Positions 38,743 to 45,348 of a DNA stretch of 64,000 bases are shown here, one piece after another (the stretch's first letter is position 1; every line of letters begins with the position of its first letter). The stretch lies in assembly GCF_001620265.1 (NCBI RefSeq), contig NZ_CP012661.1, forward strand, positions 4,539,001 to 4,603,000, read 5' to 3'. Below the pieces are notes generated by a model that had not been told where the DNA came from, did not search any database, and worked only from the letters and a program-made list of their open reading frames with translations. This DNA comes from Frigidibacter mobilis. GTDB lineage: Bacteria; Pseudomonadota; Alphaproteobacteria; Rhodobacterales; Rhodobacteraceae. Made by a program: the position numbers and the translations under genes.

Positions 38743-38777
38743 ACTGCCATCACAACTACCATTATTCTGCTATATCC

Positions 38778-39748
38778 CTATTCCGTATCGTATGTCGCGA
38801 TATGTCTCGAATACCTAATGTGTCCTGACAGCCGAGCAACGTCTTGAGGTCGGCAACTGCCCGACTGCATTACGTGGCTATAAGCGCGCAATTTGTTCCG
38901 ATACCCCTTTGTCAGCTTTACGGACTTTCCGTCTACCAAAAGTCCGTGAACTTTTAGCCGCGATGGCAACTCGGCAAAATGGGTCTTGTGCTTGGAGACC
39001 GTCCAGGGTGTTCCGTCAAAGAGGCGCAGAACTCTCTCCGGCAAGCTGCTCGGAAATTCGTTCGCCGAGGAAAAAGTGATGTCGTCGGCATATCTCGTAA
39101 CTCTAATGTTGAAACTATTAGCCAACTCCAAGAGAGCCGTATCAAGGCCCATCATTGAGATATTGGACAGGACAGGACTCGAAGGCGCGCCTTGTGCAAG
39201 AGCCCACGATAGCAGCATAGGCTCGTAATCAAAGATGCGCTAACCATATCATAACCCAAACTCATCAGACGAGAGGAGACCCACGTATCGGTGGTGGTCG
39301 GAAAGAAGTCTTGTATGTCGACCGAGTAGATCCATGACGCTTCAGTATGCTGCGCGGCCGCGTCAATGTGCGAGCGGCCTGGGACAAAGCCATAGACATG
39401 ATCGGGAAAAACCGCATTTCGCTGCAGCTGAATAGATATCCACTTTTGGATTATTTTAAGTCCCACTTTTGGAGCCATAATCAGCCTCTCGCCTCGTCCC
39501 TTGGGGATGGAGAACGACCTGTAGTGTCGGTGCGGTCGATTAACAAAAGACCAAATTATCCCTGGGTTCACGCCAATCATCGTGGCCAGAACCTCTTTAG
39601 AGGTGATCGGTATAAGACCTGCTCCCAGCAAGTGATTTATGCGCTCGACCTCAACGTCGTCGGTCACACTTGATACGGCCGCCCAAAATTCCTTTTCTTC
39701 GGAAAAAGAAAAGAACGCTGAATTGGCGAGATGGTGCGGAAGCCTCAT
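38778..39748 (-). CDS. Retron-type reverse transcriptase, one frameshift
   Basis: About 323 residues when joined. Seen in order: YRSFSIPKGRGERLIMAPK, VYGFVPGRSHIDAAAQHTEA, WIYSVDIQDFFPTTTD (first catalytic Asp), SLGYDMVSASLITSLCCYRG, AQGAPSSPVLSNI, RYADDITFSS (YADD catalytic pair) and a VHGLLVDGKSVKL segment in place of the retron VTG motif. It resembles retron RTs such as Ec86. The frame breaks at the C run 39203-39205; one more base gives RGALAQGAPSSP. Directly upstream is a structured non-coding stretch in the retron msr-msd position. Base composition is lower in GC than the core genes. Confidence 0.85.
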
Positions 39749-39883
39749 TTAGCAAACAATCGTTTCAAGAGCGTCGGTCTTCGGACTGGCGCTTCGAAGG
39801 AGCGACGGTCCGAAGATCGACGGCCCTTCTGTGTGTGGTCTTGGCAAGTGGGCATGATACATACCCGCGCCTGAGGCTCCCGC
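39736..39883 (-). ncRNA. Predicted retron msr-msd non-coding RNA
   Basis: About 148 nt between the winged-helix gene and the RT. Read on the minus strand: a1 GCGGGAGCCTCA (39883-39872) can pair with a2 TGAGGCTTCCGC (39747-39736), 12 bp with one G-U. Just inside a1 is an msr-like hairpin, GGGTATG-TAT-CATGCCC. The msd-like part is a long hairpin with arms 39772-39786 and 39808-39822 (15 bp, one G-U), extended by CGCT/AGCG toward the loop. Layout and pairing match retrons. The a2 arm overlaps the RT start codon, which is unusual. Confidence 0.6.
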
Positions 39884-39890
39884 GACAGCA

Positions 39891-40259
39891 TCATAGGTTG
39901 CCTCGCCGAGCAAGGTCAAGCAGGCGTGTGATGTCAGGGCTTGATCGCTTCTTTACAGTTCCCAGAACTTTTAACGCATTCGCAGCAAGGCAGTAGTTTC
40001 CGTCCTTGCGCCGCACCACAAAACTCGTTTTCCTGAGAGCATCCAGATGTCTGCTAAGATAATCAAGTGGAGGACTCGAGAAACCTTTCGAGGCGAGTCT
40101 TTCAGCAAGAACTTCTTGAGTTGCGGGTGCAGCAATTCGTAGTTCGTTCAAGATAGCCGTCCGAGAAGGCAGATTTTCATCGACGGTAAGTCGTACTTCA
40201 GACAGGCGGATGCCTGCATTCTCAAGATAAATAGCAATTCTACCAGATATATCATCCAT
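39891..40259 (-). CDS. Winged-helix protein upstream of the retron-like ncRNA
   Basis: 122 residues. The middle (TAILNELRIAAPATQEVLAERLASKG, LSRHLDALRKTSFVVRRKDGNYCLAANAL) has the order helix, helix, recognition-type helix and beta-wing expected of ArsR-like winged helices. Some retron types include a DNA-binding winged-helix partner. Its stop lies 8 bases before the predicted a1 arm. It could regulate the operon through the palindrome at 43770-43785, or be a working part of the system; both are inference. Confidence 0.7.
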   Translation of the reverse strand: MDDISGRIAIYLENAGIRLSEVRLTVDENLPSRTAILNELRIAAPATQEVLAERLASKGFSSPPLDYLSRHLDALRKTSFVVRRKDGNYCLAANALKVLGTVKKRSSPDITRLLDLARRGNL

Positions 40260-40320
40260 GCTATTCCTGATAGCGTCACCCTTTGGAACAACCCATACAA
40301 CACCCCGTCAGCTTCCAGCG

Positions 40321-40519
40321 TCAAGAATGCGTTTCTAACGAAATCGGGAAAGGCATGTATGAGGGTGGCCCTAAGCCCGCCTCCAAATCCATGTTGGAAA
40401 CGTCATTTAGGACAAAATTAACTAGAACATCATAAGCGGCGAGGTCTTCGGCCACCCTACGTAAGCGCAGGTTGGATGGCTTTTGGTGCCCGTCTGCGTT
40501 CCGAGAAACCTCAACAAAA
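40321..40519 (-). pseudogene. 3' part of interrupted gene X
   Basis: Open frame ending in VEVSRNADGHQKPSNLRLRR, VAEDLAAYDVLVNFVLNDVS and PFPISLETHS. It runs into the left end of the IS1595-type transposon. Removing the transposon and one copy of the 8-bp duplication joins it in frame (GCT TTT GTT GAG) to a segment at 43145 and beyond, so this is the C-terminus of a gene split by the insertion. The family is not recognised. The winged-helix gene starts 61 bases downstream. Confidence 0.65.
40512..40519 (+). repeat. Target-site duplication, left copy
   Basis: CAACAAAA, identical to 43145-43152. Eight bases is the duplication length typical of the IS1595 family. Confidence 0.92.
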
Positions 40520-40545
40520 GGCGATTGTATACTTGACAAACCCAC
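40520..40545 (+). repeat. IS1595-type transposon, left terminal inverted repeat
   Basis: Begins GGCGATTGTA and contains TTGACA (40534-40539) pointing into the element, a possible -35 for the transposase operon. Two mismatches to the right copy (positions 11 and 24). Confidence 0.9.
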
Positions 40546-40588
40546 GGCCGACCGATACCTATAACCTAACAAGTTAGAGGTTTCCGCC

Positions 40589-41556
40589 ATGTCCGTTCTT
40601 TCCGCCCCTACATGCACGACGAAGCCGCAGCCTTTGCGCACGTCGAGGCAATGCTTTGGGCTGATGGTCCGGTCTGCCCCCACTGCGGCGTCGTGGATCG
40701 CGCCTATCGCCTTGAGGGCGTCCGCTCTAAGCCGTCCAAGAAGAACCCGGAAGGTGTCGAGCGTCATGGCCTGTGGAAGTGCCGCGACTGCCGTGGTCAG
40801 TTCACTGTTCGCAAGGGCACCATCTTCGAGGAAAGCCACCTGCCGCTGCACCTGTGGCTCCAAGCGATCCACCTTCTTGTGTCCAGCAAGAAGGGCATCA
40901 GCAGTCACCAGATGCACCGCGTTCTGGGTATCACATACAAGAGTGCATGGTTCCTGACCCATCGCATCCGCGAATGTATGCGCGACGGCGCGCTGGCTGG
41001 CTTTGGTGGCGACGGCGGCATCGTGGAAGTTGACGAGACCTTCATCGGCAAAGAGCCGGGCGTGAAAAAGGCTAAGAACGCCCGTGGCGGCTCCCACAAG
41101 ATGAAGATGCTGACCCTTGTTGACCGCACCACCAAGCGCGCCAAGAGCATCGTCGTCGACGACCTCAAGAAATCCACGCTGATCCCGATTTTGATCGAGA
41201 ATATCGCCCGCGAAGCATATGTCATGACCGACGAAGCCAGTCAGTATCAGGGCATCGGCGCGGGCAAGGTGTTCGAGGCCCATGGCTGGACAAACCACAG
41301 CGCCGGTGAGTATGTGAACCTCAAAGATCGCGAGATGCACACCAACACGGTCGAAGGCTTCTACAGCATCTTCAAGCGCGGCATGAAGGGCGTCTACCAG
41401 CACTGTGGTAAGCAGCACCTGCACCGCTATGCCGCAGAGTTTGACTTCCGTTACAACAATCGCAAAGCAAATGGGATAGACGATTCTCAGCGCGCGCTGA
41501 ACGTGCTATCTTCTGTCAAGCACAAAAGGCTCACATACAAATTGTCTGATTTCTGA
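40589..41556 (+). CDS. IS1595 family (ISXO2-like) DDE transposase, one frameshift near the start
   Basis: Zinc-ribbon N-terminus VCPHCG and WKCRDCRGQFTVRKGTIFE, then the DDE/N domain: GGIVEVDETFIGKEPG (first Asp), YVMTDEASQYQGIG (second Asp) and MHTNTVEGFYSIFKRGMKG (Asn-Thr-Val-Glu). The frame open from 40612 lacks the usual start; adding one C to 40605-40608 joins it to the ATG at 40589 as SVLSAPYMHDEAAAFAHVEA, the family N-terminus. The TGA overlaps the next ATG by one base, so the passenger genes are coupled to it. Confidence 0.93.
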
Positions 41557-42376
41557 TGGCACCTCCCGGCGGAACGGATATTCGGCTGACGATCTACGGT
41601 CTCGACCATCACGGGACGAGGTTGATGCCGCTGTGTTTGCCGACAAGCTGAAAAAGCTTGTTTCCGGGCTTAAAAAGCTTGACGCGTTTTACAACAGCAC
41701 GGGCCAGCACAAGTTTATGATACATGATCTTGAGTTCGCTAGCGCTACGGTAATGCTCCGCGAAAAGGTAATTAAGTCTAGACCCGTGCGCCACTCTCCG
41801 TCTCTTAGGTTTGTCCAGATAGGGGCCGCCGCGAGTAGAGGTGGTGGCTTCCAAATCGAAAACGCCGCTGAAGAATATGCCCTCGGAATCTTTAAGAGCC
41901 TATCCCATGGCGCGGGAGATTCTTTCTCTTATGGCGTAGTCAACGGGAGCGGCGATGATCCTGTTAGGCTTGACAGACTTCTTGAAAGCCGAGTTGATAG
42001 GATAATTTCTGCCGCTGAAGATGCTGCGAAGCAAGCTCCGCCAAGATACTTTAGGGGAGTGGCGCTATCAACATATGATGGGATAATGAAGCTAGTGGAT
42101 ATTCGCGGCATGTTTCCTGAGGCGAAACTGATCCTTTCTGCTGGCGGTAAAGAAGTCAGTTGCGTGATTCCTGCTGAAAACGTTGATGCACTGCGCGCTT
42201 CTCTTGGGAGGCGCGCGCTTGTGAGTGGTCGAGCGCAACACGATGGTCGCAGTATGCTGCCAGAACGTATAGACGTGACCAGCATTAAGTTGATTGAGGA
42301 AAATGCGCCTAACATCATTTCCCTTGGTGGCAGGCTGCATGGACTTGATCCGAATAACGTGAAGGAAGCAGGGTAA
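41556..42376 (+). CDS. Unknown passenger protein of the IS1595 transposon, one frameshift
   Basis: 273 residues when the G run at 41613-41615 is given one more base: TDIRLTIYGLDHHG then DEVDAAVFADKLKKLVSGLK, QHKFMIHDLEFASATVMLRE, FRGVALSTYDGIMKLVDIRG and NIISLGGRLHGLDPNN. The repeated mention of ligand-like strands and a long Lys-rich helix gives no known family. Without the correction only the part from a GTG at 41633 is open. It starts inside the transposase stop and ends inside the PIN start (TAATG). It might be the antitoxin of the PIN protein, or a transposition helper; unproven. Confidence 0.65.
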
Positions 42377-42951
42377 TGGCTTCCGAGAGCTTCCTATGGG
42401 ATACATGTGTCATCTATCGATGGTTTAATCCGAGTCCAGTCGAATACAAAGATCACATTAAGGCATTCCTGAAGGATGCTGAGGAAAAGAAGGTTGAAAT
42501 TTTCGTTTCGACAATTTCTCTTGCTGAAATTGGACCTAGCAAGATGGGTAAGAGCGGCCTAAGCCCCAGGCAGGTCCTAAGCTCAATGAGTAAAGCCCTC
42601 GTGTTTGTAGACACAACGCCAGATATCATGTCACTAGCCGGGCACCTGCGGGATCAGACTTATCGCCACGCCGAAGGCCCCGACGATAAGGCGGCAAGCC
42701 GCTTACTTAGCTTGGGTGATTCAATTCACTTAGCGACAGCGGTGGCCTTGCGCGAAGAATATGGGGTTCAGAACCTATCGTTCCACACTTTTGACGAAGG
42801 TAAGAGGAAGGACAGCGAAATCGGGAAGAAGACCGTTCCGATGATCGGTTTCCAGAATTGGTGCCGTGACTGTCAGGACGATGAAGAAGTCCGAAGGGTG
42901 ATGGATCTTTCACGAAACAAACCGGTGCATCCATCATGTCCACTCCCGTAA
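42376..42951 (+). CDS. PIN-domain protein (passenger of the IS1595 transposon)
   Basis: 191 residues with the PIN ribonuclease acidic set: FLWDTCVIYRWFN (first Asp), STISLAEIG (Glu), LLSLGDSIHLATAVAL (Asp) and FHTFDEGKRK (last Asp). PIN proteins of this size are often VapC-like toxins. It overlaps the upstream gene by one base and the downstream 49-residue gene by 16 bases. GC is lower than in the chromosome core. Whether its neighbours act as antitoxin is not known. Confidence 0.8.
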   Translation: MASESFLWDTCVIYRWFNPSPVEYKDHIKAFLKDAEEKKVEIFVSTISLAEIGPSKMGKSGLSPRQVLSSMSKALVFVDTTPDIMSLAGHLRDQTYRHAEGPDDKAASRLLSLGDSIHLATAVALREEYGVQNLSFHTFDEGKRKDSEIGKKTVPMIGFQNWCRDCQDDEEVRRVMDLSRNKPVHPSCPLP

Positions 42952-43085
42952 AGAAAAGTCAGGCGGATCGCTTCAAGGAGGCCGCCCGCGAACTTGAAGC
43001 GGACGACGACGAAGCCACCTTCAACGAGAAGCTTCGGAAGCTGGTGAAGCAGAAGCCGGACGACAAGAGGCCGTCCGACGACTGA
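42936..43085 (+). CDS. 49-residue charged protein downstream of the PIN gene
   Basis: Starts within the PIN gene (ATG at 42936) and encodes MSTPVKKSQADRFKEAAREL followed by EADDDEATFNEKLRKLVKQK and a DDKRPSDD end. Strongly charged and helical, with no hydrophobic core of note. Its GC is higher than the rest of the passengers. I recall similar short RFKEAAREL proteins beside PIN or phage genes in other alphaproteobacteria, but the function is unknown. It ends 33 bases before the right terminal repeat. Confidence 0.7.
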   Translation: MSTPVKKSQADRFKEAARELEADDDEATFNEKLRKLVKQKPDDKRPSDD

Positions 43086-43118
43086 TGCCGCCTGTCACGC
43101 AGGCCGCTTGTGTCAAGG

Positions 43119-43144
43119 GTTGGTTTGTCAAGTGTACAATCGCC
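43119..43144 (-). repeat. IS1595-type transposon, right terminal inverted repeat
   Basis: Inverted copy of 40520-40545 with two mismatches; followed directly by the right target duplication. Confidence 0.9.
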
Positions 43145-43152
43145 CAACAAAA
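43145..43152 (+). repeat. Target-site duplication, right copy
   Basis: CAACAAAA, identical to 40512-40519. Confidence 0.92.
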
Positions 43153-43251
43153 GCGTAAAGTGTCGTTGATTCCCCATCCTTATGCGCTAGGGCCCAGAGA
43201 GCTTAAGCCCTCATAATGCAAATAATCTTCGATCTGAGCTAAGCTAAGCAT
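43145..43251 (-). pseudogene. 5' part of interrupted gene X
   Basis: An ATG at 43249-43251 overlaps the stop region of the HEPN-like gene and opens MLSLAQIEDYLHYEGLSSLG. In another frame the stretch nearer the transposon reads LAHKDGESTTLYAF and continues into the 3' part across the removed element. Joining the two frames needs two extra bases near the GGGCCC run at 43190-43195, so this half is less certain than the 3' half. The intact protein would have about 98 residues. Confidence 0.5.
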
Positions 43252-43741
43252 TTTCTTGTTTCACCAACTGTAGCACTCTCGAAGACCAAAAGTTTGCCTT
43301 CCCCATCCACCCGTGTGCTTCGGTCACGGGCACGCCCGACAGTGTAAATCGCTCCGAGCGGAAATCAACTCGTGCGTCGGGGGTGTAGTCAGCAACCACG
43401 CGTATTGCATACGCCTTCTCTAGGTCTGCGGCAAAGGCTAAGTTTTGTGCGCTGACCTGATGGCATTCCCTCACAAGTTTCGCATCACCGATTTTGTTAG
43501 CTCTACTTTTTATCGAGATTATTTTTCTTTGGACTTTCCCTCTAAGTGTTTCGGGAATGGCCTTGTGGCTCAGTGAGCGTCCATAACCATCGTCGAGCGT
43601 GATTAGTGTTTCTCTTACGCAAAGAAATGTGGCGTAATAATATCTGTTGAATGCCGATCGAGCGTAGGCATCTGCATCCGCCTCCGATGCGGGCAGAAGC
43701 TTCATTGCCTCAACTTGAAGGTGGCGCGCGACGTTATGCAT
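43244..43741 (-). CDS. HEPN-like domain protein, first gene of the RT-linked operon
   Basis: 165 helical residues. YARSAFNRYYYATFLCVRETL and IRVVADYTPDARVDFR match the two signature regions of HEPN-like proteins (Arg/Tyr-rich helix; R-x-x-ADY). The classical RNase R-x4-6-H motif is not clear; VRECHQ is the nearest His. HEPN domains serve as RNase effectors in many defence systems. Gene X starts inside its stop codon. The start at 43741 lies 28 bases from a perfect palindrome that could be the operon's operator. It shares the fold, not close sequence, with the HEPN-like gene at 6033-6584. Confidence 0.7.
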   Translation of the reverse strand: MHNVARHLQVEAMKLLPASEADADAYARSAFNRYYYATFLCVRETLITLDDGYGRSLSHKAIPETLRGKVQRKIISIKSRANKIGDAKLVRECHQVSAQNLAFAADLEKAYAIRVVADYTPDARVDFRSERFTLSGVPVTEAHGWMGKANFWSSRVLQLVKQENA

Positions 43742-43769
43742 GCCTCAGTCATACGACAATGGAACTCTA

Positions 43770-43785
43770 AGAAAAGTACTTTTCT
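43770..43785. promoter_or_regulatory. Perfect 16-bp palindrome upstream of the HEPN-like gene
   Basis: AGAAAAGTACTTTTCT, self-complementary over all 16 bases, 28 bases upstream of the HEPN-like ATG. Its AT-rich dyad and position fit an operator for a small DNA-binding protein such as the winged-helix product encoded downstream in the same operon. That link is inference. Confidence 0.5.
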
Positions 43786-43804
43786 GAGTTGAGAGCAACC
43801 CAAA

Positions 43805-43826
43805 GGGGCGCCCTCCCGGACGCCCC
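43805..43826 (-). terminator. Terminator of the DUF2125 gene
   Basis: Hairpin with arms GGGGCG (43805-43810) and CGCCCC (43821-43826), which read on the minus strand is followed by TTTGGGTT. It lies just after the DUF2125 stop and marks the right edge of the lower-GC island. Confidence 0.6.
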
Positions 43827-43851
43827 CTCCCCTTCCTCCCGTCACAGCCCC

Positions 43852-45348
43852 TTACTTCAGCCGCTGACCGTTCGCATAGAGCCCGCCATCCTCGCGGACC
43901 TCGATGGTGGAGTTGAGCTCGTCCGGCCCCGGGCCGGTATTGGCGAACAGGCCCGCCATCATCCGCACGCCCATCGCCTGGTCTTCCGGCACCAGGCCCA
44001 TTGCGATCAGATTGTCGAGGAGCCCGTTGCCGCCCAGCAGCTTCAGGCTGACCGAGCCAAGCGGCTTCGGCATCCCGTCGAAGGTCACCATGTCTGAATT
44101 GTCGAAGGTGAAGCTGCCATCGCCGGTCAGCTCCGCGCCGCCGAAGGTCAGTTGCAGCTCGTTCAGGTCCAGCGCGTGCAGCTCGCCGGGTGCCTCCGCG
44201 GTGGCGGCCTGCTCCGGGTCGAGCAGGTCGATCAGCATCTTCGCCGCGCCGCTGACATCGAGGATCAGCGTCGCCGGGTCGCGCGGCAGCTGCGCCATCG
44301 GGTCCAGCATCGACCAGACCTCGTCGTTCACCGCCAGGTCCACCAGCCGCATTTCAAACCCGAACGGCGCGGGTGCGTCGGACTTCGACACCGGCATCAG
44401 CAGGCTGAACGCCGATTCCGCCAGCGAGATATCCACCGGGAACGGGAGCTGCGAGCCGGTCAGCGCCATCGTCCCGCCGGTCCCCGCCGCGCCATAGCTC
44501 AGGGCCTCGGCATCCATCGCCAGCTCGAAGCTGCCGCCGTCGCCCGCCGCCTCGATGGTCATCGTGTCGGTCGCGTCCACCACCTCCATCGTATAGCTGC
44601 CGGCGCCATAGCTGAGGCTGCCCTCGATCTTCAGCCCGGCCCCCAGCGCCGCCGCCATGTCGGCCATGTCCACGCCCTCGGGCATCACGGTCGTGCTGGT
44701 GCCCTCCAGGTCCGACAGGCTGCCTTCCATCGAGAAGGTGCCGTCGGTTTCCGGATCGGTCGCCGACACGGTGAAGGTCACTTCCGGCGCCGCGATCTGC
44801 TGGGTCGCGGTGATATCCCCCGCCAGCCCCATGACCGAGCTGCCGGTCACATCGCGGGCCGCCATCTCCATCGTCATCTCGACCGGCGTGCCGTTCACCA
44901 CCATCTCGGTGACCGACACGCCCATCGCGGGCGCACTGAACTCATAGGTCATTTCGTCCGGTGTGCCCGAGACGGTCATCACCATGTCGGGCTGCGAGAA
45001 CAGCATCGACATCTCGACCGTCTCGTCCTCGGCCACGGTGGTCATGTCGAACGGGATCTCGGGTGACATCGTCACCTCAACCGCACCGCCGCGCTCGGTC
45101 AGCACCATTTCGGCAATGGTCACGCTGCCGGTCGCCTCGGGCGTGGTGGTGGTGCCGGTCACGTCGCGCAGCGTCAATGTGCCGCCCCGGGCCTCTTCCG
45201 ATCCGGCGGTCAGGGTAAAGCCCATGCCGCCGTAATAGTCCTGCCAGCTCTGCCAGACCTCGGCTGCCGTCACATCGGCCTGCGCCGCGGTGCTGCACAG
45301 CAGGCCTGCCAGCAACGTGCCGCAGCCCAATGATTTCCACTGTTCCAT
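43852..45348 (-). CDS. DUF2125 domain-containing exported protein
   Basis: 498 residues with a signal peptide (GCGTLLAGLLCSTAAQADVT). The rest is beta-rich with alternating short strands, many Thr, Met and Asp residues (VEMSMLFSQPDMVMTVSGTP) and few Lys, typical of DUF2125 proteins of Rhodobacterales. These are predicted periplasmic or outer-membrane-associated; the role is unknown. The gene is core-like in composition. Confidence 0.85.
   Translation of the reverse strand: MEQWKSLGCGTLLAGLLCSTAAQADVTAAEVWQSWQDYYGGMGFTLTAGSEEARGGTLTLRDVTGTTTTPEATGSVTIAEMVLTERGGAVEVTMSPEIPFDMTTVAEDETVEMSMLFSQPDMVMTVSGTPDEMTYEFSAPAMGVSVTEMVVNGTPVEMTMEMAARDVTGSSVMGLAGDITATQQIAAPEVTFTVSATDPETDGTFSMEGSLSDLEGTSTTVMPEGVDMADMAAALGAGLKIEGSLSYGAGSYTMEVVDATDTMTIEAAGDGGSFELAMDAEALSYGAAGTGGTMALTGSQLPFPVDISLAESAFSLLMPVSKSDAPAPFGFEMRLVDLAVNDEVWSMLDPMAQLPRDPATLILDVSGAAKMLIDLLDPEQAATAEAPGELHALDLNELQLTFGGAELTGDGSFTFDNSDMVTFDGMPKPLGSVSLKLLGGNGLLDNLIAMGLVPEDQAMGVRMMAGLFANTGPGPDELNSTIEVREDGGLYANGQRLK

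Follow-up and report, generated by a model that had tools for sequence, protein, structure and literature searches.

A type IX retron in Frigidibacter mobilis, very probably decayed, that keeps an intact HEPN gene

The retron types were reportedly set up in a paper by Mestre in 2020. For type IX, the definition used here relies on the names of the PADLOC models and on the available portion of a 2026 preprint (PMC13405049), which is also the one work on type IX retrons returned by a literature search that reached few subscription papers. It describes retron-Kva2 of Klebsiella variicola (PDB 36ht), a type IX system with four parts in one operon, namely a HEPN RNase effector, a winged-helix (WH) protein, a non-coding RNA (ncRNA) and a reverse transcriptase (RT). 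The same four parts lie in a row on the minus strand of a stretch of 64,000 nucleotides (nt) from Frigidibacter mobilis (contig NZ_CP012661.1, positions 4,539,001 to 4,603,000; hereafter the window), where the WH and RT genes are broken. Their best models in PADLOC-DB are HEPN_IX for HEPN, HTH_IX for the WH open reading frame (ORF) and RT_IX for both RT pieces. This locus is very probably a type IX retron that has decayed through a transposon insertion and several frame breaks. A sequence-only reading of the same DNA had proposed a retron locus that combines an RT and an msr-msd RNA with a HEPN RNase as effector and a winged-helix partner, rightly so according to the PADLOC IX models. Its suggestion of a possible new type falls, since such models exist and Kva2 has been both solved and tested with phage, and its five elements come down to four, two of them broken, because the supposed gene X and the winged helix are one gene.

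Within the available text of the preprint (PMC13405049), cryo-electron microscopy of Kva2 reveals a complex of a HEPN dimer with RT, WH and multicopy single-stranded DNA (msDNA), in which the GAAG motif of the msdDNA (26-29) contacts WH. Defence is lost when HEPN residues (H64, R122, Y40-42) are changed or when the msDNA loop is removed. The trigger is the phage T5 protein D5, whose binding to msDNA is predicted by AlphaFold3 and whose remodelling of the complex was seen by mass photometry; with designed triggers, smaller RNA fragments appear only with active HEPN, and D5 by itself is toxic and depletes tRNA according to the authors. In an intact type IX operon, the RT would copy part of the ncRNA into msDNA and, judging from Kva2, RT, msDNA and WH would keep the HEPN dimer in an inactive complex. 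As its authors propose in the text available, a WH-like phage DNA-binding protein may bind the msDNA loop and remodel the complex, and HEPN may then cut tRNA so that growth stops. The ancestor of the window locus presumably worked in the same way, as its sequence likeness to Kva2 suggests.

Comparison is based on Kva2 and on five intact relatives, three in genomes (L008 in G034, L009 in G562 and L016 in G802, with an identical protein, P0046, listed under Methylobacterium sp. Leaf112) and two on plasmids (L014 from Leisingera caerulea and L015 from Photobacterium). The proteins of L016 used as queries match all three Kva2 proteins in PDB 36ht. In all five relatives the order is HEPN, WH, an ncRNA-bearing gap and RT, and the gap between WH and RT measures 143-157 nt versus 142 nt in the window. 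These loci resemble that of the window in gene order and in an 8-base overlap between HEPN and WH, and differ from it in that all their genes are open. The parts of the window locus, by window position, are as follows.

43244-43741, minus strand: HEPN RNase effector gene (HEPN_IX), 165 amino acids, open, catalytic residues kept
43153-43251, minus strand: 5′ remnant of the WH gene (the earlier gene X), with its ATG in the end of HEPN; the frame shuts after 23 codons
39891-40519, minus strand: 3′ remnant of the WH gene in three frames, covering WH profile positions 35-84, 79-104 and 109-241 in order
39735-39883, minus strand: retron ncRNA (coordinates counted by hand from alignment columns)
39152-39748, minus strand: first part of the RT, a 198-amino-acid ORF with about 185 homologous residues
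38778-39218, minus strand: second part of the RT, with YADD, in another frame

The HEPN-like gene announced at 43741-43244 is confirmed by the HEPN_IX model (E=2e-45, 152.8 bits, model positions 1-158 of 161; PADLOC). Its product aligns with Kva2 HEPN in PDB 36ht (E=4.5e-20, only 75.8 bits), and residues H59, R114 and Y34-36 fall on Kva2 H64, R122 and Y40-42. These residues are invariant in 14 of 14 aligned sequences, comprising the window, the five intact relatives and eight of 45 HEPN matches; the latter are proteins taken without neighbouring genes, the first of which (P0001) is probably the window's own. Positions 43770-43785 form a perfect 16-base palindrome, AGAAAAGTACTTTTCT, which ends 28 bases ahead of the start codon of HEPN. 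Inspection by eye did not find it in the 100 bases preceding HEPN in any of the five relatives, and it is possibly an operator, possibly a product of chance.

Between HEPN and the ncRNA, the C-terminal half of a WH gene is recognized by HTH_IX and the remainder lies in pieces. The 122-amino-acid winged-helix ORF at 40259-39891 (minus strand) matches HTH_IX with E=1.6e-42 and 143.9 bits, over positions 122-239 of 240 only. With a WH profile built from the five intact relatives (E-values calculated for a search space of 1), the remains fall in at least three frames, and tblastn with the WH of L008 retrieves the first inner piece (E=0.004) and the last one (E=4e-26). The sequence-only reading had gene X start in the HEPN stop codon; its ATG does lie within the HEPN end, ATGCTTAG, giving the 8-base overlap. 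The 23 residues of gene X produce no score at the expected place of the WH profile, and it is by position and by the equal overlap in 5/5 relatives that they are assigned to WH. By these sequence comparisons, gene X and the winged-helix ORF, earlier held to be separate genes, make up the opposite ends of a WH gene of about 240 amino acids, which in every intact relative is a single open gene of 239-245 amino acids (starting with TTG rather than ATG in L015). The window WH piece also matches the WH of Kva2 in PDB 36ht directly. By our own reading of the alignment and the numbering in the available part of PMC13405049, it has D190, D197, R200 and K201 in common with Kva2 and a serine in place of N193.

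The two ends of WH are separated by a transposon, as had been proposed from the sequence, and the insertion is bounded by target-site duplications.

40520-43144, plus strand: IS1595-family transposon, 2625 bp, with 26-bp terminal inverted repeats that are 92% complementary
43145-43152, minus strand: target-site duplication, first copy, 8 bp
40512-40519, minus strand: target-site duplication, second copy, 8 bp, identical to the first

Because the WH remains occupy at least three frames, the transposon is not the sole damage, and the earlier reading, which noted the insertion only, was incomplete: the RT is frame-broken as well.

The RT with YADD had been correctly called retron-type, but it is not a single whole gene, as its two parts (39748-39152 and 39218-38778) occupy different frames. 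Both have RT_IX as their best profile model, with E-values of 9.8e-68 and 1.7e-58 (PADLOC), and 226.5 versus 110.9 bits and 196.2 versus 97.6 bits for the next model, which places the RT in the IX clade by leads of 116 and 99 bits. With the RT of L008 as query, tblastn gives collinear matches to residues 1-185 and 185-318, each at 45% identity. In the five intact relatives the RT is open, with 320-333 amino acids. The sequence-only reading had foreseen that its novelty would fail if the RT belonged to a well-studied type with a different effector; the type is indeed a described one, but the effector is the same.

Upstream of the RT lies an ncRNA with an a1/a2 helix and an msd stem-loop, its a2 strand running into the RT start codon.

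39883-39872, minus strand: a1
39871-39843, minus strand: msr hairpins
39827-39768, minus strand: long msd stem-loop
39747-39736, minus strand: a2

The structured msr-msd RNA predicted before the RT is supported both by the window sequence alone (folding z = -2.56, with 2/200 shuffles as stable or better) and by strong covariation. For the six ncRNAs of the window and its relatives, aligned by sequence, RNAalifold finds an outer a1/a2 helix, two stacked msr helices and a 25-pair msd stem. In this consensus structure 91.0% of cells are paired versus 73.9% in shuffles, and 28 of 48 pairs have changes on both sides versus 12.4 in shuffles, values that none of 500 shuffles reaches in either case and that are somewhat favoured by deriving the structure from the alignment on which it was scored. 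Sliding the partners by 1-3 columns leaves 31-46% paired. The msd loop CTTC is invariant in 6/6 ncRNAs and complements the GAAG for which PMC13405049, in its available part, gives the position msdDNA 26-29. No Rfam family matches the RNA of the locus. Altogether, the window shares with Kva2 the operon of HEPN, WH, ncRNA and RT, the H/R/YYY active site of HEPN and the GAAG of the msd loop, and differs by its broken WH and RT and by the transposon in WH.

The earlier claim that HEPN belongs with the RT, for which a co-occurrence check had been suggested, holds at each of the five intact HEPN_IX loci, where WH and RT are both found. When 19 loci were searched with the HEPN and WH profiles, both matched the same seven, which amount to five distinct places (L017 and L018 repeat L008 and L009), and the RT is present in all five; neither profile matched the other 12 of the 19, which include distant RTs and the flanks from sister species. 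These elements are rare: the first RT piece was found in 2/295 genomes of a family sample (the window's and G034), a HEPN homologue (P0009) in 2/394 of a family sample (the same two) and in two plasmid records, HEPN_IX in 2/398 of a phylum sample (the window's and G802) and RT_IX in 3/385 of a class sample (the window's, G562 and G459). Among plasmids, 29 records had an RT match, two of which were examined further, and a HEPN search of the same collection gave just those two. The five relatives are not an unbiased count, because they were partly found through the RT, but HEPN-led searches alone gave four of them (L016, L008, L014 and L015), all with an RT. Protein search covers WH poorly, since an intact WH query returned only three proteins, one being the query itself.

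Other retrons were considered and set aside. Although above the RT_IX threshold, G459 (L011) is of type III-A (RT + PRTase, PADLOC), and PADLOC typing of four of the six distant RT loci (L002-L007) gives XIII for L002 and L006, XI for L003 and I-C for L004. The RTs of the typed loci are distant matches to that of the window; unlike the window, neither L011 nor any of the six distant loci has HEPN_IX or WH_IX in the DNA examined. On the Leisingera plasmid, a DUF3800 gene lies directly upstream of the type IX retron (L014 1207-2313).

Where a type IX retron has open WH and RT genes, the window has a WH spread over at least three frames and containing a transposon, and an RT split between two; for this reason the locus is classified as a decayed, not a working, member. 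Several points weigh against this classification. HEPN has kept its full length and active site and the ncRNA its good pairing, so that these two parts still appear whole rather than decayed. The window HEPN goes unrecognized by Pfam alone, and the scores of the two inner WH pieces with the WH profile are weak (13.5 and 7.9 bits). A programmed (recoded) frameshift in the RT, with which the sequence by itself is compatible, is thought unlikely because the RT is open in one frame in 5/5 intact relatives. Finally, errors in the sequence might in principle account for the frame breaks.

There is a slim chance that HEPN was retained alone after the breakage of the retron, serving as an RNase in its own right or as partner of something else, for it has its whole length and every catalytic residue, in contrast to the broken WH and RT. 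But no second relative of the window RT occurs in the source genome at E ≤ 0.001 (one match), the gene is short (165 codons) and may merely have escaped mutation so far, and a scan of 43700-43900 upstream of HEPN, limited to one promoter type, found no promoter-like site. It is still less probable that the breaks are sequencing errors and that the transposon alone interrupts the operon. Errors would suit the assembly in that about 1.7 kb of retron DNA holds at least three breaks, one of them in RT and at least two in WH. But the chromosomal genes next to the locus, like the three larger genes of the transposon, have uninterrupted frames, and the flanks can be aligned with DNA of four sister species (71-93% identity). 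The separate ORFs of the window give the appearance of a new retron type, or a new variant, in which X and the winged helix are distinct proteins; that reading is hardly credible and was rejected, given the PADLOC IX models, the order of the X/WH pieces on one 240-amino-acid profile, the single WH gene of the five intact relatives and the large RT_IX lead.

With the WH and RT genes of the decayed type IX retron broken, no msDNA, no complex and thus no defence would be expected. Since the cell lives with the HEPN gene, its product is probably made in small amounts or harmless without the complex. There is a small chance that the orphan HEPN is still made and tolerated, in which case a type IX HEPN would not be lethal by itself and would need the retron complex for activity, or that it now serves another function. 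An intact effector without partners constitutes a natural test of the toxicity of HEPN alone; no such test was found in the available text of PMC13405049, including by a word search for ‘HEPN alone’. As a system, the window locus adds little, type IX being described and Kva2 solved, and at most the HEPN outlasting its partners intact is new. It is useful also for a small set of covarying type IX ncRNAs and for a chromosomal spot that carries different defence genes in sister species.

The two genes flanking the locus, one presumably alpha-glucosidase-like and the other of 498 amino acids, stay neighbours in the four sister species examined, and delimit the following intervals.

Window, 38743-43851
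L026, 8552-9738
L027, 4283-6123
L028, 5138-6228
L029, 8086-8168

They enclose PDC-M04A/B in G205, DarT-DarG in G1025, a stretch of about 1.1 kb in G1024, where one tested ORF has no PADLOC match, and 83 bp in G1023. Since sister species hold other content between the same genes, the retron was probably acquired at a site prone to taking in defence genes.

The transposon, of which the source genome has no second copy (one match), carries three larger genes.

40612-41556, plus strand: IS1595 transposase, 314 amino acids, open
41633-42376, plus strand: cargo gene, 247 amino acids, no Pfam or PADLOC match
42376-42951, plus strand: cargo gene with a PIN domain, below the Pfam cut-off (21.4 of 23.6 bits)

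The 247-amino-acid cargo protein was found in 1/289 class genomes (the window's own) and in one plasmid record. A small ORF of about 50 codons follows the PIN gene. The element resembles a recurring transposon that carries a PIN operon, which might be a toxin-antitoxin pair. A like series of transposase, unknown gene, PIN gene and small ORF is found on a Roseomonas marmotae plasmid (L031 1879-4510), between 38-nt inverted repeats that are 76% complementary and of which one arm has TTGACAAAC in common with the ends of the window transposon.

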